IMG/VR virus record: IMGVR_UViG_3300009419_000841
Location: 1 to 32,678 of that record
Length of the DNA: 32,678 nt
Source of the DNA: a virus
Reading direction: 5' to 3' (one strand)
Shown here in pieces: positions 1 to 32,635 of this stretch (position 1 is its first letter; each line of letters opens with the position of its first letter). The notes beneath the pieces are model-generated. The model saw nothing but the letters and a program-made list of their open reading frames with translations. It made no database searches and was not told the DNA's origin. Position numbers and translations under genes: made by a program.

Positions 1-161
1 ACAAAATATGGGTCAGCTCCTGCTTCGTTTGCCTGTGTAAGTACGCTACTGGCTAGCATCATATGACCTTTATGACCCATACCTCTACCCCAACCAACAA
101 CTGCACTTTTGTTTTCACCAGTGCGGTCTAAATTTTCTATTAATAATTCGCGTAATCTCAT
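1..161 (-). CDS. HIGH-type (cytidylyltransferase-like) nucleotidyltransferase, N-terminal part only
   Basis: Only the first 53 codons are in the window; the gene runs off the left edge. The start ATG at 161-159 overlaps the TAA stop of the upstream gene by one base, which fixes the start. After a short MRLRELL leader there is a beta strand (SAVVGWGRGM) followed by GHKGH at about residues 30-34. This matches the nucleotide-binding (H/G)xGH signature of the cytidylyltransferase-like superfamily, which includes NMN and phosphopantetheine adenylyltransferases. Substrate cannot be inferred from this fragment. It is the third nucleotidyltransferase-fold gene in a row in one operon. Its N terminus closely matches that of the preceding ligase-like protein (RLREL), suggesting a shared targeting peptide. 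Confidence 0.6.
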   Translation of the reverse strand, partial: MRLRELLIENLDRTGENKSAVVGWGRGMGHKGHMMLASSVLTQANEAGADPYF

Positions 162-1300
162 TAGTCTTTCCTTGGAGCCCAATTACCCTGGTCAATCGTT
201 TTAACAAACTGCCCTGGTAAGTCACGTTTAAATTCACCGCCCGGATGTGCTTGTACATAACCCTCTGGCTTTGTTTGTTTAATACCGCCGTGTGTTCCGG
301 CATTAAGAGAAGCAATAACTTTCATCTTTGCCTTAGTTAACATTTCTACTGCGTCTAGTACAACATTAAGGCCTGGATGGGTTAGAATCTTTTCTGCTTT
401 TCCACCAGTTGGGAATTCAGTTTTAACCCAATTCTCAAATTGACTCTTGACACCTTCAATGCGTAAGTTCTGATTATAAAACTTATACATCACATCGCCA
501 GGTTTAGTTAACCCTGGGACGCCAGCAATAAAGCTATCAATGACTTGGGCGTTTTGTTCTATATATTGTTCTGCCTGATCTAACTCTGTTTGATCAAATT
601 CTATTGGTTCCTGTACATAAGTTGTGCCTTGCACAATAACATCTTCAGTACTTAACTGTTCTGCATTTGGATAACGAGACTCTGTCGGATCTGCTAGGCT
701 ACTATAGTAACCAGTAGCCGCAACCATAAGTTTTGCATAGCCAATCTTTCCACCTAACTCACTATTCACTGGAATATGGAAGGTAGTAATGTTTGGAGTA
801 AAATCATATGTGTTAGTTGCTTTGTTTACAATTGGCATCTTGCCAGGATAGAATAATAAGCCGCCTTCAATAAATCCTTTTTCAGGACTAATGCTTTCAA
901 AATACTGCCAAAGATCTGCTAATTGTTTTGCATAACTTTGACGTTGTTTTTCTTTTCCAGGTTCTGCTTTGCCTGTATTAATAATAAAATTTTCAATATC
1001 AGCTGGACTTAGCATCAGTGTACTAACACCGTTAGTTGTTTCTTTTTTGCCACGCTTTAAATAGTCCCAGGCATTTTTTGGAATAAGCATGAATCTATCT
1101 TCAGCATCTCTGCCCCAGTACACAACAGGACTACCATCCCATTTTAATTCAATACTTCCGCCTTGTTGGCTCATCTTACGCATACGCTCAACGGCATGCA
1201 AGCCACCAGTACTACCGTTAGTGAATACTAAATCTTCAATGTGTTGATATTTGCGACCTACTGCTGGAGCTGCCGCTTCAAATAGTTCTCTTAATCTCAC
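161..1300 (-). CDS. Ligase-like covalent nucleotidyltransferase (DUF6267-like phage protein)
   Basis: Predicted 379-residue protein. I place the start at GTG 1300-1298: it overlaps the previous gene's stop as GTGA and has AGGATG a few bases upstream. An ATG 30 bases earlier would add ten residues deep in the previous gene. I see the motif order of polynucleotide ligases and capping enzymes: KWDG at residues 53-56 (motif I, candidate AMP/GMP-accepting Lys53), R64 downstream, FIEGGLLF at 143-150 (motif III-like), EGYV at 346-349 (motif IV) and a Lys-containing stretch at 358-367 (motif V). About 190 residues lie between III and IV, longer than in small RNA ligases. The protein resembles the DUF6267 family of T4-like marine phages, for which I know no established function. 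Ligase activity is inference. The N terminus RLRELFE|A fits a prohead protease site. Confidence 0.6.
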   Translation of the reverse strand: MRLRELFEAAAPAVGRKYQHIEDLVFTNGSTGGLHAVERMRKMSQQGGSIELKWDGSPVVYWGRDAEDRFMLIPKNAWDYLKRGKKETTNGVSTLMLSPADIENFIINTGKAEPGKEKQRQSYAKQLADLWQYFESISPEKGFIEGGLLFYPGKMPIVNKATNTYDFTPNITTFHIPVNSELGGKIGYAKLMVAATGYYSSLADPTESRYPNAEQLSTEDVIVQGTTYVQEPIEFDQTELDQAEQYIEQNAQVIDSFIAGVPGLTKPGDVMYKFYNQNLRIEGVKSQFENWVKTEFPTGGKAEKILTHPGLNVVLDAVEMLTKAKMKVIASLNAGTHGGIKQTKPEGYVQAHPGGEFKRDLPGQFVKTIDQGNWAPRKD

Positions 1301-2064
1301 GACAACATCCTTTTCATGCGACTGAACCATTCGTTAGTTCCGACGGTTGGTGTTGCAGCCTGCCAACTTGACGATGCTTTCGCTTTGTCAAAAATCTCAT
1401 TGCGGGTTGCTTCGTTTGGAATAGCGGCAAGTATTGATTCAACACTGCCTAAACTATCTGCATTAGCACCCCTGCCTAACAAATATTGTGCGATCTCATC
1501 TAAGTCATCACTTAAAAAGTCTGCTTTCTTACCATTCTCATCACGCTTATACAGTCCTTCATCTGGACTCCATAACAACCCTTGACTAGTAGCCAAGGTA
1601 TTCATCATCATTTGTTTGTTGACGCCTTTATACGGACTACCTGCAGGAATTTTATGTCTGTGAAATGCGGCAACTTTTTCTGCTTTGCGTACTACTTTAA
1701 TATCTACTTGATGAAACTTATCTTGGAACGGCAACAGTATGTGTACTGTTACACCTGCTTTGTATGTTTTAATGCCTTTGGATTGCAAATAATCGTCAAG
1801 TGCTTGTCTAGCGGCTTTATCTTCGTCTGCAAGTTTTTTCATCTTAGGAATATCAAAAAACTTTTTAACTAAATCCATGTCAGTCATGACGTCTAAGTCA
1901 CCACTCATTTTACCCGGAGTTGGTGTGGCAGCACTGCCAATTACGTGTACTTTTAATCCTGTACCTTGCAATAGCTTATCAGTAGCTTGATCTAAATCTG
2001 GTGCAATGCCCTGGTCAAATGGTTCTGACTCTGGCCAAATGTTACCGCCTTCGTTTAATATCAT
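1297..2064 (-). CDS. DNA polymerase beta-type nucleotidyltransferase domain protein
   Basis: 255 residues. The ATG at 2064 overlaps the stop of the upstream gene as ATGA, and its own stop overlaps the next gene as GTGA. It shows the Pol-beta superfamily signature: a helix, then HVIGSAA (Gly43-Ser44), then SGDLDVM with Asp56 and Asp58 as the metal-binding pair, then the third acidic residue in HQVDIKVV (Asp121). A basic region, KVVRKAEK, follows directly. Members of this superfamily transfer nucleotides to RNA, DNA, antibiotics or proteins; the substrate here is unknown. It sits between a small unknown protein and the ligase-like protein and is translationally coupled to both. The N terminus MILNE|GG has the L-x-E pattern of T4 prohead-protease sites. 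Confidence 0.7.
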   Translation of the reverse strand: MILNEGGNIWPESEPFDQGIAPDLDQATDKLLQGTGLKVHVIGSAATPTPGKMSGDLDVMTDMDLVKKFFDIPKMKKLADEDKAARQALDDYLQSKGIKTYKAGVTVHILLPFQDKFHQVDIKVVRKAEKVAAFHRHKIPAGSPYKGVNKQMMMNTLATSQGLLWSPDEGLYKRDENGKKADFLSDDLDEIAQYLLGRGANADSLGSVESILAAIPNEATRNEIFDKAKASSSWQAATPTVGTNEWFSRMKRMLS

Positions 2065-2459
2065 TTGTATAGTCCTTCACGCATATTTTTTAATTCTTCT
2101 TCGTGTATAGCTTTGCAAATTTCTTCAACCATTTCTTTATCTAACTCATCCCTAAGTTCACGCAATGGAAATTCATGTTGATACATTTTATATGCTTTTA
2201 CAACAGTTGGCTGAAACACTCTATGACTAAAAGATTGACCGTTGTCAAACTGTTTTCTGCATAGATTTAATACTGGAAAGAAACTTTTACGATAAAAGTC
2301 ATCGTTATGATGCATGAAGTAAATTAAGTCTTCAGCAAGGTCAAACGTGTATTCATCGTTTTCATTGCTGTCTTTTGATGGATCCTTATTGAACCCAACT
2401 TTGTTAATGCCTAATTCACTATCTAGCTTTTCTTTGTCAAAGATTTCTGTTATTTTCAT
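2061..2459 (-). CDS. Conserved phage protein of unknown function, first gene of the nucleotidyltransferase operon
   Basis: 132 residues, start ATG 2459 preceded by GGGCAGGT. I do not recognise a family. The protein is acidic and mostly helical, with a D/N-rich segment at residues 25-37, an aromatic segment around FMHHNDDFYRKSFFP and a charged C-terminal helix. It is the first gene after the late promoter at 2508-2515 and is coupled (ATGA) to the Pol-beta nucleotidyltransferase, so it probably works with or is co-packaged with those enzymes (inference). The N terminus MKITE also contains an I-x-E pattern, which could be chance. Confidence 0.6.
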   Translation of the reverse strand: MKITEIFDKEKLDSELGINKVGFNKDPSKDSNENDEYTFDLAEDLIYFMHHNDDFYRKSFFPVLNLCRKQFDNGQSFSHRVFQPTVVKAYKMYQHEFPLRELRDELDKEMVEEICKAIHEEELKNMREGLYK

Positions 2460-2507: not shown

Positions 2508-2515
2508 TATTTATC
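2508..2515 (-). promoter_or_regulatory. T4-type late promoter motif GATAAATA
   Basis: On the minus strand GATAAATA occurs about 50 bases upstream of the ATG at 2459. It differs from the T4 late consensus TATAAATA only at the first base. The same octamer is found upstream of the 785-residue structural gene (17845-17852) and of erpA (28891-28898). It would drive the nucleotidyltransferase operon late in infection. No sigma70-like -35 box is evident here. Confidence 0.6.
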
Positions 2516-6939: not shown

Positions 6940-6959
6940 TTTCCGCTCCTATTTATTTG

Positions 6960-7679: not shown

Positions 7680-7686
7680 TATTTAC
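7680..7686 (-). promoter_or_regulatory. Possible late promoter motif GTAAATA before the DUF4337 gene
   Basis: Minus-strand GTAAATA overlaps the stop codon of the endolysin gene, 20 bases before the ATG at 7660. It lacks the first bases of the full TATAAATA consensus, so it is weaker than the motifs at 2508 and 29216. It could give late expression of the membrane proteins independent of the upstream genes. Confidence 0.35.
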
Positions 7687-8441
7687 TAACGACTTGCTAT
7701 TTTTGTCGGTTGCGGCTTTGGTGTCGCGGCCTGACCTGGTTTCTTAGGTTGTGCTTGTGCTAACTGTTGTTTTTGCTGTTGTGTTGCAGCCAAACGTTCT
7801 TTAGATTTAAGGCCAGCAGGATTAACAACCTTAGTAGCTTGTTTGGATGTTTTGCCCTTGCCTACTTTCATTTTAAAATATGCAATGGACGCCAGCGCGG
7901 CTTCCTTAGGATTAACTGAAAGTAGTGTTGGGTTGTCAATATAAATGCTTGGATTTTCTGGATGAACAGCCGCCCCAATTTTAGCATATAATTCTCTGCC
8001 AGTAATATGTATAAATCCTCGGCCTCTGTATTTCCAGCCATCTCCGCTCTTTTCATCACCGTTGCCATTTTTATTTGCTAATGCTCTATTAGCAAGGGCA
8101 ACTGGATTACCTACATACGGTGTTGCTTCTGCAGGTGTTTTGAAATTACTAGTGAATACTTTATAAATCCTTTGAGGATCAGTATAATTAAACTTTTCAG
8201 AAGCCGCTGTCCAGTTTGCTGTTTCAACTTGACATTGTCCTAAAAAACTAGACAAGTCGTTAGCTGTCTTTAATCCTTTTGCTTTGGCTAAGGATACTAG
8301 TGTTTCTTTATGTTGCGCCGGATTAAATGCTTGAGGTTCGTTAACTGCTATTTTAGGAATAACAGGTACAGGTGTTGGAGCTATCTGTGTAGGTTGAATA
8401 GCGGGTTTAGGTGCCCCGCCAAATAGTTCCCTTAAAATCAT
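7686..8441 (-). CDS. GH19 (chitinase-like) peptidoglycan hydrolase, endolysin
   Basis: 251 residues; ATG 8441 overlaps the Rz stop as ATGA. A short N terminus MILRELFGG is followed by a Pro-rich linker (about 10-40), then the glycoside hydrolase family 19 domain (about 45-190): FLGQCQVETANW (catalytic Glu73), SEKFNYTDPQRI, and YRGRGFIHITGR, which matches the GRGxxQxTGR region. The C-terminal tail is Gln/Pro/Lys-rich and probably disordered. Phage GH19 enzymes cut peptidoglycan glycan strands. There is no Sec signal, so it needs the holin to reach the wall. The N-terminal M-x-LREL is shared with two proteins of the cassette at 1-1300, which raises the possibility that this enzyme is virion-associated rather than, or as well as, a soluble endolysin. 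Confidence 0.85.
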   Translation of the reverse strand: MILRELFGGAPKPAIQPTQIAPTPVPVIPKIAVNEPQAFNPAQHKETLVSLAKAKGLKTANDLSSFLGQCQVETANWTAASEKFNYTDPQRIYKVFTSNFKTPAEATPYVGNPVALANRALANKNGNGDEKSGDGWKYRGRGFIHITGRELYAKIGAAVHPENPSIYIDNPTLLSVNPKEAALASIAYFKMKVGKGKTSKQATKVVNPAGLKSKERLAATQQQKQQLAQAQPKKPGQAATPKPQPTKIASR

Positions 8442-14141: not shown

Positions 14142-14648
14142 TTATCTTAGGAAGTCCTGCCAGTCTAAATTATATTTAATCGGGTCAATCTTATGAACAC
14201 CTATAATATATAACACATAACTGGCAACACTTGACCCCCGACCAACACCCCAGAGTATGTTGTTTTCTCTGCTAAACTCTACAAAATATTTAAGCCATCT
14301 TAACAAGTCTATCATATTTCTTCGATCAAACTCTTTTAGCTCTTCTTCAGCTCTATTATATGATACAATGTCTGGACAGTTACATAACACCCAATTTTTG
14401 ATATCAAGTGTTTTGTATTCTTCAGGCATGTTCCAATCTGACTGTAACGCTAAATCGTGTTCCTCTATACTAACATCAAAGTCGTTGGGGTACGGTTTTA
14501 AGAACAAAAATCCCAGTTGTTCTTCTAGTTGTCTTGTGTTGTTGTTTGAATTGACAAACATTTCCGGCGATAATGGTTGTCCATTATACAAGGCATCAAA
14601 AATGTCTTTTTCTTCAAAGATAGGATTACAGAATTTGTCAGATAGCAT
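14142..14648 (-). CDS. Fragment-sized DNA polymerase III alpha (DnaE)-like protein lacking catalytic residues
   Basis: 168 residues. The last 60 (from about RRNMIDLLRWLKYFVEFS, then GVGRGSSVASYVLYIIGVHKIDP and NLDWQDFLR) align with the DnaE segment around GRGSGAGSLVAYALxITDLDP...FERFL, at the start of the polymerase palm. The protein stops just before the catalytic PDFDxDF motif, and the N-terminal 110 residues correspond to the region between PHP domain and palm. So neither a polymerase nor a PHP nuclease site is present. Stop and start look normal, with a good promoter, so it seems to be a maintained small protein rather than a fresh truncation. Possible roles include clamp or replisome interaction (inference). 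No Shine-Dalgarno; promoter -10 ends six bases before the ATG. Confidence 0.75.
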   Translation of the reverse strand: MLSDKFCNPIFEEKDIFDALYNGQPLSPEMFVNSNNNTRQLEEQLGFLFLKPYPNDFDVSIEEHDLALQSDWNMPEEYKTLDIKNWVLCNCPDIVSYNRAEEELKEFDRRNMIDLLRWLKYFVEFSRENNILWGVGRGSSVASYVLYIIGVHKIDPIKYNLDWQDFLR

Positions 14649-15472: not shown

Positions 15473-17826
15473 GTTATAGTTACCTTGTCATCTTTAAATA
15501 CTAGATATTTATCGTTGCCGTATCCGGTCACGGAATCTATTATATATCTATCTACGGTATAGTCTAAATTCTTAAAATCAAATCCGCTATACTTAATGTT
15601 TAGCATAATATCTGCACTTGTTCCAGGTTTACAGAAACAAATTGGAACTGCTAAAACAAATCCTAATTCTTGCTTACTTTCGTCCTGGACACTACGCATC
15701 CATAGGGGTAAGTAATTTCGTTCTCTCGCACCAGCAGTCAGAATCTTATTTCTCCAAATACTAATTGAACTTGGATATCTTGTACTATAATTTGGATCGC
15801 TAGCAAATAAGTTTGTTTGATCAACTGTTATTCTATTATCAGGTCTTGGTAAGAATGGTTCGTCCCTGTCGCTGGTTTTCCAAATAGCATTACTGGCATC
15901 TGTTGTAATAGTTTTAGGATCTAATGGACGTTTTAATGTTGCGTTCAAATACTTATTCCCAATTTCTAATGGGTCAAACATTTCCACATAAACAACTTCG
16001 TATACTACTGTGTTTGTTCCTGTAATCTTTGCCTTAGCAGATTTAATGTCACCAAATGTAAAACGTTTTCTCTTGTGGTTTAATCCCATAGCACTAACAT
16101 ATTGTGCGGCAGTTTTAGTTTCGATGCCGCCAAAGATAGTCATTCTTAAATCTCGTTGTATACCAAAGTTAGGATCATTTGGTCTATAGACACTTTCTGC
16201 TGGAAATACATTACTGTTATTAATGAAGTCGTTAAACAATGCTCGCTTGTTTTGATTCATAAATGTTCTAGCAACAATACTGCTATACAGTCTATCATTA
16301 GGTGTGTCTATATTTAAAGTAAACTCTCTACTAATGCTACTGTACTTAAATTGATCTTGCGCTTTAATTACGAATTTAAATGTTCTATCTACTGAAGTAG
16401 TTCCACCATCAAATGTTTGATTAGTATATACCCCATCAGAGAATGTTGTTATGCCTGGCTCATTTACAGTGCCATACTGATTAACTTTGCCTGTAATCTC
16501 ACCGTCTAATTCTAAAGATAATCCTGACGGCAACGAACCTGACTCTAATGAATATACCAGTGTAGCACCTTCTATATTACTAGTTGCTAACACTCTAAGA
16601 TTACTGATAAAATTTGCATCAATAGTGCCTAACAAACTATCAGTCTCCCAAGTCATTATACTATCAACATCGCCTAACGTCTTAATTGTAAACGTTCTTT
16701 TTGTGGCTGCAATAGTACCATCACTATCATATCTAGATGCTGTTATTGTAAAATGGTATGTTTCAGTAATGGTTGGTTGATATGGAACTACACCAAATAA
16801 TTCTGAAGTAGCAATATCTAATTGTAATCCAGGCGGAAGTATACTAGCACTATTATCAGGATTTAACGAATCTAAATTATAAGTTATCGGGCCTAATTCA
16901 GGCGAGTCATAACAATCTAATACGATAGTCAAATAGTTATTAGCCCTGTGTGTACCAAGGTCCGTTGGTGTTAACCATATTGGGTTTCTTAAATATGTTC
17001 CGTCGACAGTGAATACACCATTGGCTGCTCTAGCAATAGTATTATCAGCACGTAAGAAATCGTCACCAACAACATATATTTTAAATTTTCTTTTACTAAC
17101 AGTGTCGCTATCACTTACGGATACAATAAATTCATAGTTCCTGTTTAGTTTGCGAGGAGGCAACGACGGTATAAAATAATCATAAAATACGCTATCGTAT
17201 ATAAAGCTATCAAATCCGTTATCTGGTCTGTTACCAAAATCGTAGCCGGTCACATCATATAGGTCGTTGCTATAGTTCCCATTGCCAACTTCTGAATCAA
17301 CGACAGTGTATGCTGGATCTATAAGACCAGTAATCTTACCATCATCGGTTAATGTTAGCCCTGGCGGTAATGTTCCGTCACCACTAGAGATAAAGTATTG
17401 TAGGGTTTGACCGGTTGCAGTGTCGTTATCAGATACACTGATTTGAAAATCTACAAAACTTGAGTCTAAAATAAAATATGTGTTATTTGGGCCTACTGGT
17501 AACGACCCCTCAGTAGTCGCAAATACAGGAACATCTGCACCTTCGATGGTTAATTTAAACGTTCTATCTGCTATCTCGCCGTTATAGGATGCTCTAATAC
17601 AGAATGTAAATTCAGTAACTCTCGGAACTTCAAAAGGCGTTCCTACAATGTGATCACCAGCCAATCTAAGTCCCGCAGGCAGTGATCCACTAATAATTTT
17701 AAATGTTGCTGATGATGAATCGGGTACTATAGAATCATATGTTACAGGCAATCCAAGATCTACAATAGATCCTTCTTGTATTGTACCAAATGTGTACCCG
17801 GATTTTTTAGTCCAAATGTTTAACAT
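15469..17826 (-). CDS. Large structural protein with four putative-Ig (He_PIG) repeats
   Basis: 785 residues; ATG 17826 preceded by AAGGG. At least four repeats carry the He_PIG signature (G-x-LPxGLxL...GxIxG): around residues 45-65 (SGSLPAGLRLAGDHIVG), 148-168 (GTLPPGLTLTDDGKITG), 328-346 (ILPPGLQLD) and 428-447 (SGSLPSGLSLELDGEITG). Each is followed by a cadherin-like FxFxIxA strand. The C-terminal 275 residues are a different domain (IFGGIETKTAAQYVSAMGL, then a basic KRKRFTFGD). He_PIG domains occur in phage and bacterial surface proteins that bind carbohydrates or form stalks. Probably a fibre or adhesin. A late-type promoter sits just upstream. Confidence 0.8.
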   Translation of the reverse strand: MLNIWTKKSGYTFGTIQEGSIVDLGLPVTYDSIVPDSSSATFKIISGSLPAGLRLAGDHIVGTPFEVPRVTEFTFCIRASYNGEIADRTFKLTIEGADVPVFATTEGSLPVGPNNTYFILDSSFVDFQISVSDNDTATGQTLQYFISSGDGTLPPGLTLTDDGKITGLIDPAYTVVDSEVGNGNYSNDLYDVTGYDFGNRPDNGFDSFIYDSVFYDYFIPSLPPRKLNRNYEFIVSVSDSDTVSKRKFKIYVVGDDFLRADNTIARAANGVFTVDGTYLRNPIWLTPTDLGTHRANNYLTIVLDCYDSPELGPITYNLDSLNPDNSASILPPGLQLDIATSELFGVVPYQPTITETYHFTITASRYDSDGTIAATKRTFTIKTLGDVDSIMTWETDSLLGTIDANFISNLRVLATSNIEGATLVYSLESGSLPSGLSLELDGEITGKVNQYGTVNEPGITTFSDGVYTNQTFDGGTTSVDRTFKFVIKAQDQFKYSSISREFTLNIDTPNDRLYSSIVARTFMNQNKRALFNDFINNSNVFPAESVYRPNDPNFGIQRDLRMTIFGGIETKTAAQYVSAMGLNHKRKRFTFGDIKSAKAKITGTNTVVYEVVYVEMFDPLEIGNKYLNATLKRPLDPKTITTDASNAIWKTSDRDEPFLPRPDNRITVDQTNLFASDPNYSTRYPSSISIWRNKILTAGARERNYLPLWMRSVQDESKQELGFVLAVPICFCKPGTSADIMLNIKYSGFDFKNLDYTVDRYIIDSVTGYGNDKYLVFKDDKVTIT

Positions 17827-17833
17827 GCTTCGC

Positions 17834-17856
17834 CCTTGATATAATATTTATCAAGG
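17834..17856 (-). promoter_or_regulatory. Late promoter GATAAATA inside a perfect hairpin
   Basis: Minus-strand GATAAATA (17852-17845) is 18 bases upstream of the ATG at 17826. It is embedded in an inverted repeat CCTTGATA (17834-17841)/TATCAAGG (17849-17856) with a 7-base loop. The hairpin would form in RNA reading through from the upstream fibre gene, so the site may couple 3-prime end formation or processing with a new late start. Confidence 0.6.
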
Positions 17857-28886: not shown

Positions 28887-28914
28887 TTGATATTTATCGA
28901 TACCGTTTTATAAT
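28887..28914 (+). promoter_or_regulatory. Possible sigma70 promoter for the zinc-ribbon gene (TTGATA-N16-TATAAT)
   Basis: Plus-strand TTGATA 28887-28892, 16 bases, TATAAT 28909-28914, predicted start near 28921, giving a 12-base leader without Shine-Dalgarno. A TAAATA core (28922-28927) lies five bases before the ATG at 28933, so a late start directly on the ATG is also possible. Confidence 0.5.
28891..28898 (-). promoter_or_regulatory. Late promoter GATAAATA of erpA, abutting the start codon
   Basis: Minus-strand GATAAATA ends five bases before the erpA ATG at 28885. T4 late transcripts begin about six bases after the octamer, so the message would start at the ATG. It overlaps the -35 box of the divergent plus-strand promoter, so the two could exclude each other. 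Confidence 0.55.
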
Positions 28915-29244: not shown

Positions 29245-29490
29245 ATGTTAGGATTTATTAAAAAGTTATTTGGTGGTAAAACAGAAACTCAGGTCGCTGA
29301 GGTACCATACAAAGTTGAAGTAGCAGAACCCGCACCTGCACCAGTAGTCGAGCCAGTTGCTCAAGCAGTAGTCGAGGTTGTTGCTAAGCCTGCCCCTAAA
29401 AAGGCTCCAGCTAAAGCGCCAGCTAAGAAGCCAGCAGGAGCTAAACCAAAGGGTCCACGCAAACCACGTGCCCCTAGGCAACCTAAGTAA
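29245..29490 (+). CDS. Histone H1-like Ala/Pro/Lys-rich basic protein
   Basis: 81 residues; ATG 29245 with a strong AAGGAGG. Residues 1-12 (MLGFIKKLFGGK) are amphipathic; 15-50 are rich in Val/Glu/Pro/Ala; 50-81 are KxPAPKKAPAKAPAKK-type sequence ending in basic PRKPRAPRQPK. The tail is like the C-terminal domain of histone H1 and bacterial HU/H1-like DNA-condensing proteins. A role in packing phage DNA or binding nucleic acid late in infection is likely but inferred from composition. The gene meets uvdE tail to tail, with stops adjacent (TAA/TTA) inside the 12-base palindrome 29485-29496, and no terminator. Confidence 0.72.
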   Translation: MLGFIKKLFGGKTETQVAEVPYKVEVAEPAPAPVVEPVAQAVVEVVAKPAPKKAPAKAPAKKPAGAKPKGPRKPRAPRQPK

Positions 29491-30545: not shown

Positions 30546-31366
30546 TATATACTTGTATGATTTTTGATTTTTATGGCAACTTTGGTGCTCTAAATAGTCC
30601 CCCAATTTTTGAAGCATTTGAAATTGGATTAAAGAAGCACGGGCATGAAGTAAGACACCATTCCGGCGATGGTGACGTAGCAGTGATTTGGAGTGTACTT
30701 TGGTATGGAAGGATGGCGTCAAATTATCCAATTTGGCAAAAATATCGTAACCAAAATAAACCTGTTATTGTTTTAGAAGTTGGAGCACTGAAAAGAGACG
30801 TTACTTGGAAGATCGGTATTAACGGAATCAACATGGGATCTTACTTTGTCAATAACAATATGGACAGTAGTAGGATAAACAGTTTTGGATTAACATTAGA
30901 TGACTGGAAAACAGGTTCTAATATTATTATTTGTAGTCAGCATGACCGCAGCCAGCAATGGCAGGGAAATAAATCCTTAGATCAATGGGTAACTGACACT
31001 GTCAATGAATTGAAAAAACACACAGACAAACCAATTAAGTTACGCCCGCATCCAAGATGTCCAGTTCGAGGCATTTCAAATATCAAAATTGACACTACTA
31101 CACCGTTTGCAACTGATTTAGCAACTGCATGGGCAGTAGTCAACTGGAATTCTAATCCCGGAATCGAATCAATAATCCACGGCGTACCTTCTTTTGTCGG
31201 TCCTACCAGTCTAGCCAGTCCCGTAGCCAATTTGCAGTTATCGCAAATAGCAAATCCAAATAAGCCTGACAGACAACAATGGTTTAACAACCTTGCTTGG
31301 ACAGAGTGGACAGTGGATGAAATGACTAAAGGTATTCCTCAGGAATACATTATCGCCAGTTTTTAA
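30539..31366 (+). CDS. GT-B-like glycosyltransferase (capsule/KDO-transferase-like), predicted
   Basis: 275 residues if starting at ATG 30539; an ATG at 30557 (MIFDFYGNFG) is an alternative, and neither has a Shine-Dalgarno sequence. Blocks: DVAVIWSVLWYGRM (about 42-60), IVLEVGALKRD, IKLRPHPRCP (163-175), and AVVNWNSNPGIESIIHGVPSF (about 199-219). The last resembles the sugar-nucleotide-binding loop of KpsS/KpsC and CDP-glycerol-type transferases, where a conserved Asn/Ser and Glu precede G-x-P. It could modify phage or host polysaccharide. It overlaps the next gene tail to tail by 17 bases. Confidence 0.55.
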   Translation: MSIYTCMIFDFYGNFGALNSPPIFEAFEIGLKKHGHEVRHHSGDGDVAVIWSVLWYGRMASNYPIWQKYRNQNKPVIVLEVGALKRDVTWKIGINGINMGSYFVNNNMDSSRINSFGLTLDDWKTGSNIIICSQHDRSQQWQGNKSLDQWVTDTVNELKKHTDKPIKLRPHPRCPVRGISNIKIDTTTPFATDLATAWAVVNWNSNPGIESIIHGVPSFVGPTSLASPVANLQLSQIANPNKPDRQQWFNNLAWTEWTVDEMTKGIPQEYIIASF

Positions 31367-32045
31367 CTATAACTGGATCTTCAATAGTGTGAACATGTGG
31401 GTATCCATGAAATGCAATGATTGATGTGCTATCATGTATCGCTGGGTCTCTAATAGTTTTAAATTTACTTTGCGGACCTAAGGTGGTAAGCTCGTCCCTA
31501 CTACGAATTTCCCACTTGTAGCTACGTATCCATTCGTCAGGGAAGAATTTGATTTTGTCTCTGCACAATGACCATATCCAGTCTTGATCACCGTGATATT
31601 TTCTAGCAACATTTGGATCTGTTTCAAACCTATCCCAAATTTCAGAAAACTTTCCTGCTGGCCACTTGAGTACAGCACTACCTAACTTTTGATAATCTGG
31701 TCTAAAGACACGTCCAACATCTCGTAGGCCTACAAATTCTTCAGGAAGGTAATCCATATAATGATCAATACCTTTTACAATGACCATGTCTAGGTCAATA
31801 TAAAAATTAGTATCACCTTCTGGAAAATGATCTGCTTTAAATATGTAAGGCTTCCACCACCAACCTTGTATATTGTTGTGTGGTAGTAGTCTTACTTCTA
31901 TTCCAGGATTTAAATCTTTAGGGTCATCTGTAAAGCATACAAATCTATGAGGCATCCTGAGATGCCTCTGAATCATATTATATAGATTATTAGCATAGGC
32001 AGTACTATACTTTGTACCGTGCTTTAAACAAATGACGTTTAACAT
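31350..32045 (-). CDS. GT8-like (GT-A) glycosyltransferase
   Basis: 231 residues; ATG 32045 overlaps the queD stop by one base. FYIDLDMVIVKG carries the metal-binding DxD (Asp84, Asp86) of GT-A enzymes. FVCFTDDP and GWWWKPYIFKADHFP precede it, and HGDQDWIWSL follows, the pattern of family 8-like phage transferases. Likely adds sugar to DNA, protein or glycan; the acceptor is unknown. It is in the same operon as queD and convergent with the GT-B-like gene. Confidence 0.75.
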   Translation of the reverse strand: MLNVICLKHGTKYSTAYANNLYNMIQRHLRMPHRFVCFTDDPKDLNPGIEVRLLPHNNIQGWWWKPYIFKADHFPEGDTNFYIDLDMVIVKGIDHYMDYLPEEFVGLRDVGRVFRPDYQKLGSAVLKWPAGKFSEIWDRFETDPNVARKYHGDQDWIWSLCRDKIKFFPDEWIRSYKWEIRSRDELTTLGPQSKFKTIRDPAIHDSTSIIAFHGYPHVHTIEDPVIVKNWR

Positions 32046-32569
32046 TAACCTTCGTAGACTGCACTGTTGCCAGCATGTTCAAATACTTCAACTGAACGAA
32101 GTTTAACTCCGGCACCGACTGGATAACGTGCTTCAAAAAGGCGACCGTCTGGATGCGTCCAACTTGTGCCTGCTTGGTATGCTATCAAGATTTCGTTCAT
32201 TGTCTTATAAGCTAATTCGGCAAACTTTTCGCAACCAACTGCTTCTACTAGACGCAAATCTAGTACACCACCTTCTGCTTGTTTACCTAACTTGGCAAGT
32301 TCTTTAAACTTTGGAAGATGCGGATCGTCCAATGCCATAACAGTGGTGTGGTCAAACTGCCACTCACTCCACTCTTTAAATGCCTTAAGTCCACCAAAGT
32401 CCATAACCCAGTTGCGGTCATCCAATGTTTCTGATTCGAAAATTAATTTGATACCAATTGAGTATCCGTGTAGTAATGAGCAGTGACTATGTGTACTTCT
32501 CCACTGTCTAAAACAGCATGAAAGGCCGCGGTCGTTACCGTATGTTTTTGTTGAAAGATATTTTGCCAT
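32045..32569 (-). CDS. queD: 6-carboxy/6-pyruvoyl-tetrahydropterin synthase-like protein (QueD)
   Basis: 174 residues from ATG 32569, preceded by AAGGA; a GTG at 32596 is possible but has no ribosome site. The PTPS fold is supported by FRQWRSTHSH (residues 20-29), CSLLHGYSIGIKL (Cys30, His34), VMDFGGLK (56-62), FDHTTVM (72-78) and LRSVEVFEHAGNSA at the end. In bacteria QueD makes carboxytetrahydropterin for 7-deazaguanine (queuosine) synthesis; phages use the pathway for tRNA or DNA modification. The second His of the HGH zinc motif is Tyr36 here. It may be usual for the phage form or imply altered metal binding. Other queuosine genes are not in this window. Confidence 0.85.
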   Translation of the reverse strand: MAKYLSTKTYGNDRGLSCCFRQWRSTHSHCSLLHGYSIGIKLIFESETLDDRNWVMDFGGLKAFKEWSEWQFDHTTVMALDDPHLPKFKELAKLGKQAEGGVLDLRLVEAVGCEKFAELAYKTMNEILIAYQAGTSWTHPDGRLFEARYPVGAGVKLRSVEVFEHAGNSAVYEG

Positions 32570-32574
32570 TGTTG

Positions 32575-32635
32575 TTTTCCTTGTTAACAATGACACGCAG
32601 AGTTTATATTGCGGGATGAGCGTCTAAGTCCGCAT
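32575..32635 (-). promoter_or_regulatory. queD mRNA leader with hairpin and possible pseudoknot
   Basis: The predicted transcript start is 32635. A 5-pair hairpin TGCGG (32634-32630)/CCGCA (32614-32610) with a 15-base loop opens the leader. Loop bases ACGC (32623-32620) can pair with GCGT (32598-32595) downstream, and an A-rich ATATAAAC tract lies between. Hairpin, A-rich linker and loop-tail pairing are the layout of preQ1 class I riboswitches, although the sequence match is loose. The leader also begins with the three-codon frame ATG CGG ACT TAG. Confidence 0.3.

Follow-up and report, generated by a model that had tools for sequence, protein, structure and literature searches.

A polymerase of family X (PolX) joined to a ligase has been described in PgVPolX of Phaeocystis globosa virus, for which gap filling and nick sealing have been demonstrated (PMC5537341). 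In jumbo phages, the Pol-beta nucleotidyltransferase RlaP has been proposed to work in partnership with phage RNA ligases (PMC7824862). T4-like cyanophages have been reported to be without gp30, the DNA ligase of T4; whether a distant ligase had escaped recognition in them was an open question in a 2010 review (PMC2984593). Here we describe a locus that touches on all three of these subjects. It lies in an aquatic phage, in IMG/VR virus record IMGVR_UViG_3300009419_000841, positions 1 to 32,678; this whole 32.7-kb viral fragment is called the window. An operon on the minus strand takes up bases 1 to 2,459 and encodes a 132-amino-acid (132-aa) protein, a PolX-like protein, a ligase-type protein of Pfam family DUF6267 and, up to the window edge, the N-terminal part of a HIGH-type protein. 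Our leading reading, held tentatively, is that T4-like phages express these genes late as a gap-fill-and-seal module, perhaps packaged and injected.

Three adjoining genes and their fusions

The genes of the operon and their main sites are as follows.

2061..2459, minus strand: 132-aa protein that opens the operon, kept before PolX in relatives
1297..2064, minus strand: PolX-like nucleotidyltransferase, 255 aa, with palm and thumb and without the 8-kDa domain; putative catalytic residues D56, D58 and D121
2050..2064, minus strand: N-terminal LxE/GG of the PolX-like protein, a prohead-protease-like site by alignment of relatives
161..1300, minus strand: DUF6267 ligase-type protein, 379 aa from a GTG at 1300, assigned by PF19782 (E=1.4e-17), predicted fold and motifs
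1277..1300, minus strand: DUF6267 leader (M/V)RLRELFE/AAAP, capsid-targeting-like by sequence comparison
1133..1144, minus strand: motif I, KWDG, with the predicted AMP-accepting Lys (K53 when counted from the GTG, K63 in the full 389-aa open reading frame)
254..268, minus strand: motif IV, PEGYV, aligning with EGYV of T4 RNA ligase 1; PEG is invariant in 63/63 sequences
1..161, minus strand: 5' part of the HIGH-family protein, which is like nicotinamide mononucleotide (NMN) adenylyltransferases (NMNATs); leader MRLRELLIE/N, motif GRGMGHKGH, the rest beyond the window edge

The DUF6267 open reading frame (ORF) is open from 1330, and comparison with relatives makes the GTG at 1300 its likely start. 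With that start the PolX-like and DUF6267 genes overlap by 4 bases, and with an ATG at 161 the DUF6267 and HIGH genes overlap by 1 base. Just the first ~53 codons of the HIGH gene are inside the window; in the 94%-identical relative L001 the protein is complete at 268 aa. The 132-aa protein had no match in Pfam or PHROG and none by tblastn in cultured phages.

Relatives were taken from IMG/VR and scored with profiles of all three proteins. Gene order and fusion are kept over ~100 contigs, far beyond chance. The PolX-like and DUF6267 proteins are fused in 50 distinct loci (615-712 aa, longer where HIGH is included), and five of these 50 are triple PolX-DUF6267-HIGH fusions (e.g. L086, L090; 984 aa). 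The two are separate neighbours in another 33 distinct loci, and a DUF6267-HIGH fusion was seen twice. HIGH adjoins or is fused at every PolX-bearing locus whose sequence extends far enough (73/73). Because two or all three of the genes are fused and HIGH is so constantly next to them or joined to them, comparison of these sequences indicates that the three form one functional unit.

A preliminary description of this DNA had read three nucleotidyltransferase folds in a row, in genes coupled by overlaps of 1-4 bases, with a motif I lysine at position 53. The overlaps and, counted from the GTG, the lysine are as it gave them. The three folds and their functional coupling are supported by the fusions, the conserved order and the predicted structures. 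Neither outcome that would have spoken against the description was seen: the genes co-occur in related phages, and of the models given below one shows the Pol-beta core and the other is ligase-like, at weak fold scores.

One locus departs from this arrangement. In L084 a PolX-like gene (L084:5001-5858) stands without DUF6267 or HIGH, and another nucleotidyltransferase-like gene (GSNAGYNYSEYSDIDLHL) lies near it at L084:7311-8000. A wider pattern is DUF6267 with HIGH and without PolX, as in S-RSM4, P-HM1 and DSL-LC02. At PolX-less loci the place upstream of DUF6267 is taken by proteins of diverse kinds that share a TD.T / YxSLK-like pattern (L027:4865-6016, L028:4523-5980, L029:5119-5928), and from an impression of their motifs, strongest in the L027 group, these may be PD-(D/E)XK nucleases. 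On the contig of L110, which has a divergent PolX-DUF6267-HIGH module, there is also a canonical ATP-dependent DNA ligase (PF01068, G006:C1:13076-13621).

The PolX-like family appears to be phage-specific, because its sole match in 84,980 cellular genomes is on one 4.2-kb contig of a Bacteroidetes metagenome-assembled genome (L181:6-590). That contig is probably phage, and a cellular origin of the family was rejected. A direct tblastn search of cultured phages with the PolX protein gave no match.

Predicted activities and the case for repair

The PolX-like protein carries G43-S44, D56-x-D58 and a third Asp, D121, in VDIK. All five residues are invariant in 38 diverse relatives, which bears out the Pol-beta signature first read here (GS, DxD and a later D). 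The AlphaFold2 model built with the 38 relatives has a predicted local confidence (pLDDT) of 91.7. The top 50 Foldseek matches in the PDB are all Pol lambda/beta (best E 4.8e-7, probability 1.00), mostly over 190-215 alignment columns of palm and thumb, at a moderate template modelling (TM) score of ~0.42-0.51 by query length. Profile alignment by hhalign with 14 bacterial PolX sequences is colinear through GS/GD(L/I)D, VD(I/L)(K/R) and the thumb, and is weakly significant (P=0.036; 3/100 column shuffles reach the score). The 255 aa begin at the palm, without 8-kDa and fingers domains, which PolX of African swine fever virus likewise does without (PMC5537341). No PolX domain in Pfam matched the protein, and sequence searches of the PDB with all three families gave no useful match. 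An identity as RlaP was rejected: even with E values as high as 10 allowed, PF10127 matched nothing in the window or in 11 related records. By its model this is a Pol-beta-superfamily protein that is PolX-like in fold and has part of the family X features.

Pfam lists DUF6267 as a 'family of unknown function'. After KWDG come, in order, motif III as (E/Q)G(G/D)LLF, motif IV as PEG(Y/F)V and motif V as VK.(I/V)D, and K-W-D-G, P-E-G and K377 of motif V are invariant in 63/63 relatives. The ligase-like protein of the preliminary description therefore holds for KWDG, FIEGG (motif III) and EGYV, and its 'Lys-rich motif V' was an overstatement, since a single Lys (K377) is conserved there and not K-x-K. 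The AlphaFold2 model (63 sequences) has a pLDDT of 89.2, and its first 12 Foldseek matches in the PDB are all nucleic-acid ligases, with AsfvLIG of African swine fever virus at the top and weak scores throughout (best E 0.03, TM ~0.2). The PDB matches include, besides this viral ligase, fungal tRNA ligase, DNA ligase IV, T4 DNA ligase and an archaeal RNA ligase. In profile comparisons motifs I and III align with ATP-dependent DNA ligases (P=0.0025, 0/100 shuffles) and motifs IV and V with T4 RNA ligase 1 (P=0.03, 0/40 shuffles); hhalign comparisons with Rnl2-type sequences, T4 RnlB and T4 gp30 did not rise above shuffles. One DUF6267 member matches RNA_lig_T4_1 weakly (E=0.017). An NAD+-dependent ligase was also considered and was rejected, there being no PF01653 match. 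DUF6267 likely belongs to the covalent nucleotidyltransferase superfamily, with an activity predicted from its motifs. No paper on DUF6267 or on the 'cytitidyltransferase' came up in searches of the literature.

We read the locus best as one for nucleic-acid repair or end-processing, because a fusion of PolX-type and ligase-type enzymes has a characterised parallel in PgVPolX (PMC5537341). The earlier suggestion of a repair, tagging or end-processing system is upheld to that extent and, taken as a whole, partly supported. In the gap-fill-and-seal module, the PolX-like enzyme would add nucleotides at a gap or broken end, and DUF6267 would take AMP onto the KWDG lysine and seal the remaining nick. 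For the repair process the NMNAT-like enzyme might make or restore NAD+, or else an adenylated cofactor related to it. The parts of this mechanism that we infer are catalysis, DNA as the substrate, what the third enzyme does, and packaging in the window phage.

Several features, besides the weak fold scores of DUF6267, weigh against such a module. In alignment, the PolX-like protein is without the YFTGS-type nucleotide-selecting motif and the conserved family X Arg after GS. The DUF6267 chain stops ~12 residues past motif V, which leaves no room for an OB domain or motif VI. DNA ligases need an OB domain, and its absence from the DUF6267 sequence is more RNA-ligase-like.

Because the OB domain is missing, RNA repair is a serious rival. 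The Pol-beta protein would then restore lost nucleotides and DUF6267 would seal RNA, such as tRNA that anticodon nucleases of the host have cut, in the manner proposed for RlaP with Rnl1/Rnl2 (PMC7824862). The alignment of motifs IV and V with T4 RNA ligase 1, the RNA_lig_T4_1 match and the RNA ligases among the fold matches all favour this. However, the Pol-beta protein is structurally nearest to family X DNA polymerases and has no match to the RlaP family. There is no tRNA in the window, a kinase or phosphatase partner was not noticed adjoining the module, and the cyanophage homologues are surrounded by replication genes. We consider RNA repair unlikely, if the best of the alternatives.

In cyanophages, where it is part of the replication gene cluster, and in HTVC008M, the DUF6267 gene comes after the uvsX/gp41 region, and in S-RSM4 and DSL-LC02, where the stretch read extends far enough, it precedes gp61 and nrdA. 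Of 376 Synechococcus phage records with gp41, 368-371 have DUF6267 and 374-376 the HIGH family, matched by record counts and not record by record; among records named 'Cyanophage', 61/61 have both. The ligase families PF01068, PF01653 and PF09414 were found neither in three complete cyanophage genomes nor in the 260-kb contig that holds the PolX-bearing locus L121; PF09511 was not found in these either, in a search without a positive control. A 591-aa S-PM2 protein named cytidyltransferase in a predicted structure library matches the DUF6267 model, which suggests a DUF6267-HIGH fusion in S-PM2 as well. DUF6267 thus bears on the question of the cyanophage ligase, being near-universal in these phages, with ligase-superfamily motifs and a ligase-like predicted fold. 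In its fullest form the proposal would be that T4-like cyanophages have in DUF6267 their overlooked ligase, and that in the window phage group it is part of a PolX-ligase-NMNAT polyprotein cut by the prohead protease inside the capsid, with each virion injecting a DNA repair kit. We regard that fullest form as doubtful.

The third protein had been read as a GHKGH (HIGH-type) domain, and GRGMGHKGH is indeed present on the minus strand. Its motifs, GMGHKGH and RATPMR, and those of the cyanophages, TTGH and ISGTKMR, fit the NMNAT-type (T/H)xGH and a C-terminal (S/A)x(T/P)xMR-like motif. Among 41 members, profile matches were to CTP_transf_like (20) and to the NaMN/NMN adenylyltransferase models TIGR00482 (16) and TIGR01526 (15), with a best E of 2e-7. 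L001, the member nearest to the window, matches none of the three; cyanophage relatives match both TIGR models. Relatives also match phrog_3041 and phrog_395 ('cytidyltransferase'), and the C-terminal extensions of HIGH proteins are variable. In these motifs the protein resembles NMN adenylyltransferases, and a cytidylyltransferase of its kind is termed an NMNAT homologue in one report (PMC10665884).

This resemblance also fits an NAD+ or nucleotide-cofactor pathway with the NMNAT-like enzyme at its core, in which the other two would modify a metabolite or protein (AMPylation/NMPylation) against NAD+-depleting host defences. The HIGH family occurs alone in jumbo phages, where no DUF6267 adjoined the 'cytidyltransferases' in three regions read. 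A HIGH relative was detected in virions (PMC10665884), and NAD+ salvage by phages is known (PMC9503650). But a cofactor pathway leaves the PolX fold with its thumb and the ligase motifs unexplained, and no nicotinamide phosphoribosyltransferase partner turned up in the regions read, in which no search was aimed at one. We judge it improbable.

Predicted late expression and possible packaging

The neighbours of the operon indicate a T4-like phage: a ClpB-type ATPase, DnaJ, holin, endolysin, PhoH, clamp loader and tail fibre proteins. The core of the T4-type late box, ATAAATA (NATAAATA-type), occurs six times in the window against 13.8 expected, and so is rarer than chance. All six lie no more than 60 bases upstream of a start codon, which 0/20,000 random placements equalled, on a gene list that counts the small plus-strand ORF 29245-29490 as an accepted gene.

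2508..2514, minus strand: late-promoter-like box GATAAATAT; the operon's first gene starts 49 bases further on
6950-6956, 15506-15512, 17845-17851 and 28891-28897, minus strand: other ATAAATA boxes, each directly upstream of a start codon
29217-29223, plus strand: ATAAATA box directly upstream of a start codon

The box is kept upstream of homologues of the 132-aa gene in 53/63 relatives. Its position and conservation agree with the late-promoter operon that had been proposed. Sigma-70 and terminator scans around the operon were not above chance.

The T4 prohead protease gp21 cuts after L/I-x-E (PMC9026906), and T4 internal proteins II and III (IPII/IPIII) begin MKTYQEFIAE/A. The window proteins begin MKITE/IFDKE (132-aa), MILNE/GGNIW (PolX-like), (V)RLRELFE/AAAP (DUF6267) and MRLRELLIE/N (HIGH). 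These leaders end ITE, LNE, LFE and LIE, in keeping with the L/I-x-E of T4 capsid targeting, and the first of them resembles the T4 Alt start, MELITE/LFDE. T4 spacing is reproduced in the HIGH relatives DSL-LC02 (MKRFLQFLSE/A) and L149 (MKSFFNFIRE/A). One or other of two leader patterns is present in 49/109 HIGH proteins, compared with 16/7,549 internal Met positions and 0/454 opposite-strand ORFs, and all 41 distinct PolX-DUF6267 junctions have [LIVMF]xE followed by A/S/D/E/N/G within ~8 residues of the conserved GRKYQHIED start (background 0.04 per 8-aa window); the patterns were defined after viewing the sequences, which are related, so these counts are descriptive and not phylogenetically independent. 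The sites at DUF6267-HIGH junctions are IQE/N, LQE/N, VRE/A and VNE/A.

Leaders of this kind were also seen on other proteins. The endolysin-like protein at 7686-8441 of the window (minus strand) starts MILRELFGG, a leader common to PolX-DUF6267 fusions. A 195-aa P-loop protein beside DUF6267 has a T4-type capsid-targeting leader (MKSFRDFIFE/..GGPGSGK) in four relatives (L144:4801-5388, L146:4040-4627, L152:4815-5402, L162:2954-3541).

The leaders and junction sites suggest that the fused enzymes enter the prohead, are cut apart at the protease-like sites and are injected with the genome, after which they would act at once on incoming DNA. On these sequence features, our reading is of a late-made repair kit that is probably packaged and injected. 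If so, DNA repair enzymes would here be injected by a phage whose own head protease had first separated them from the fused chain in which they were made. A related cytidylyltransferase was detected by mass spectrometry in S-CREM2 virions, with no cleavage of it reported in the parts read (PMC10665884).

Packaging has contrary evidence of its own. The virion table of S-CREM2 has no entry directly upstream of the cytidylyltransferase, the expected place of DUF6267 (PMC10665884), and cyanophage DUF6267 proteins such as those of S-RSM4 and P-HM1 are without a leader. Both points, and the late-type promoter box, would fit leaders that are not targeting signals and a module that acts in the producing cell only, repairing DNA in late replication and packaging. 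That confinement seems hardly probable to us, given cleavage-like sites that are kept even at internal fusion junctions and canonical T4-spaced leaders on several HIGH relatives. Inactive or structural nucleotidyltransferase descendants serving as internal head proteins could also bear leaders and the variable extensions of HIGH, but catalytic residues that are invariant in 63 DUF6267 and 38 PolX-like sequences make this very improbable.

Two observations concern the rest of the window. A 168-aa protein at 14142-14648 (minus strand) matches the short DNA polymerase family phrog_11127 and is possibly part of a split polymerase. At the far end, 31350-32596 (minus strand), are glycosyltransferase and QueD-like genes.

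Comparison with known systems

Our analysis goes beyond the preliminary description in the PolX likeness, the near-universal presence of DUF6267 in T4-like cyanophages, the NMNAT-like HIGH protein, and the capsid-targeting-like leaders with protease-like sites. The nearest proven parallel is PgVPolX, which also has a PolX core and a ligase in one viral polypeptide. It differs in having as its ligase part a complete DNA ligase of the NAD+-dependent type, in its 5'-deoxyribose phosphate (dRP) lyase activity, and in belonging to a eukaryotic algal virus. PgVPolX is also without a HIGH domain, and no packaging leaders have been described for it. African swine fever virus shares with the window phage a minimal PolX without the 8-kDa domain and a viral ligase, the top PDB match of DUF6267. 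However, its PolX and AsfvLIG are encoded by two different genes, AsfvLIG has an OB domain and is a complete DNA ligase, and we know of no HIGH partner for either.

RlaP with Rnl1/Rnl2 in jumbo phages is a similar pairing of a Pol-beta nucleotidyltransferase and a phage ligase (PMC7824862). The present system differs in having no PF10127 match, and in its PolX-type thumb, its fusions and its HIGH partner. The cyanophage pair of DUF6267 and 'cytitidyltransferase' consists of homologous DUF6267 and HIGH genes that adjoin and overlap. It differs in being without PolX: the upstream gene encodes another, possibly nuclease-like protein, and databases give the pair no function.

The T4 internal proteins and Alt have a comparable short N-terminal leader ending L/I-x-E, and are late, head-packaged and injected (PMC3012670, PMC9026906). 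They are not polymerases or ligases. To our knowledge, no fused enzyme set divided by a protease is found among them. An algal giant virus already provides a PolX-ligase fusion as such; what is new, to the extent that we could check, is the set of three, its occurrence in phages and the reading of DUF6267 as a ligase-type enzyme.

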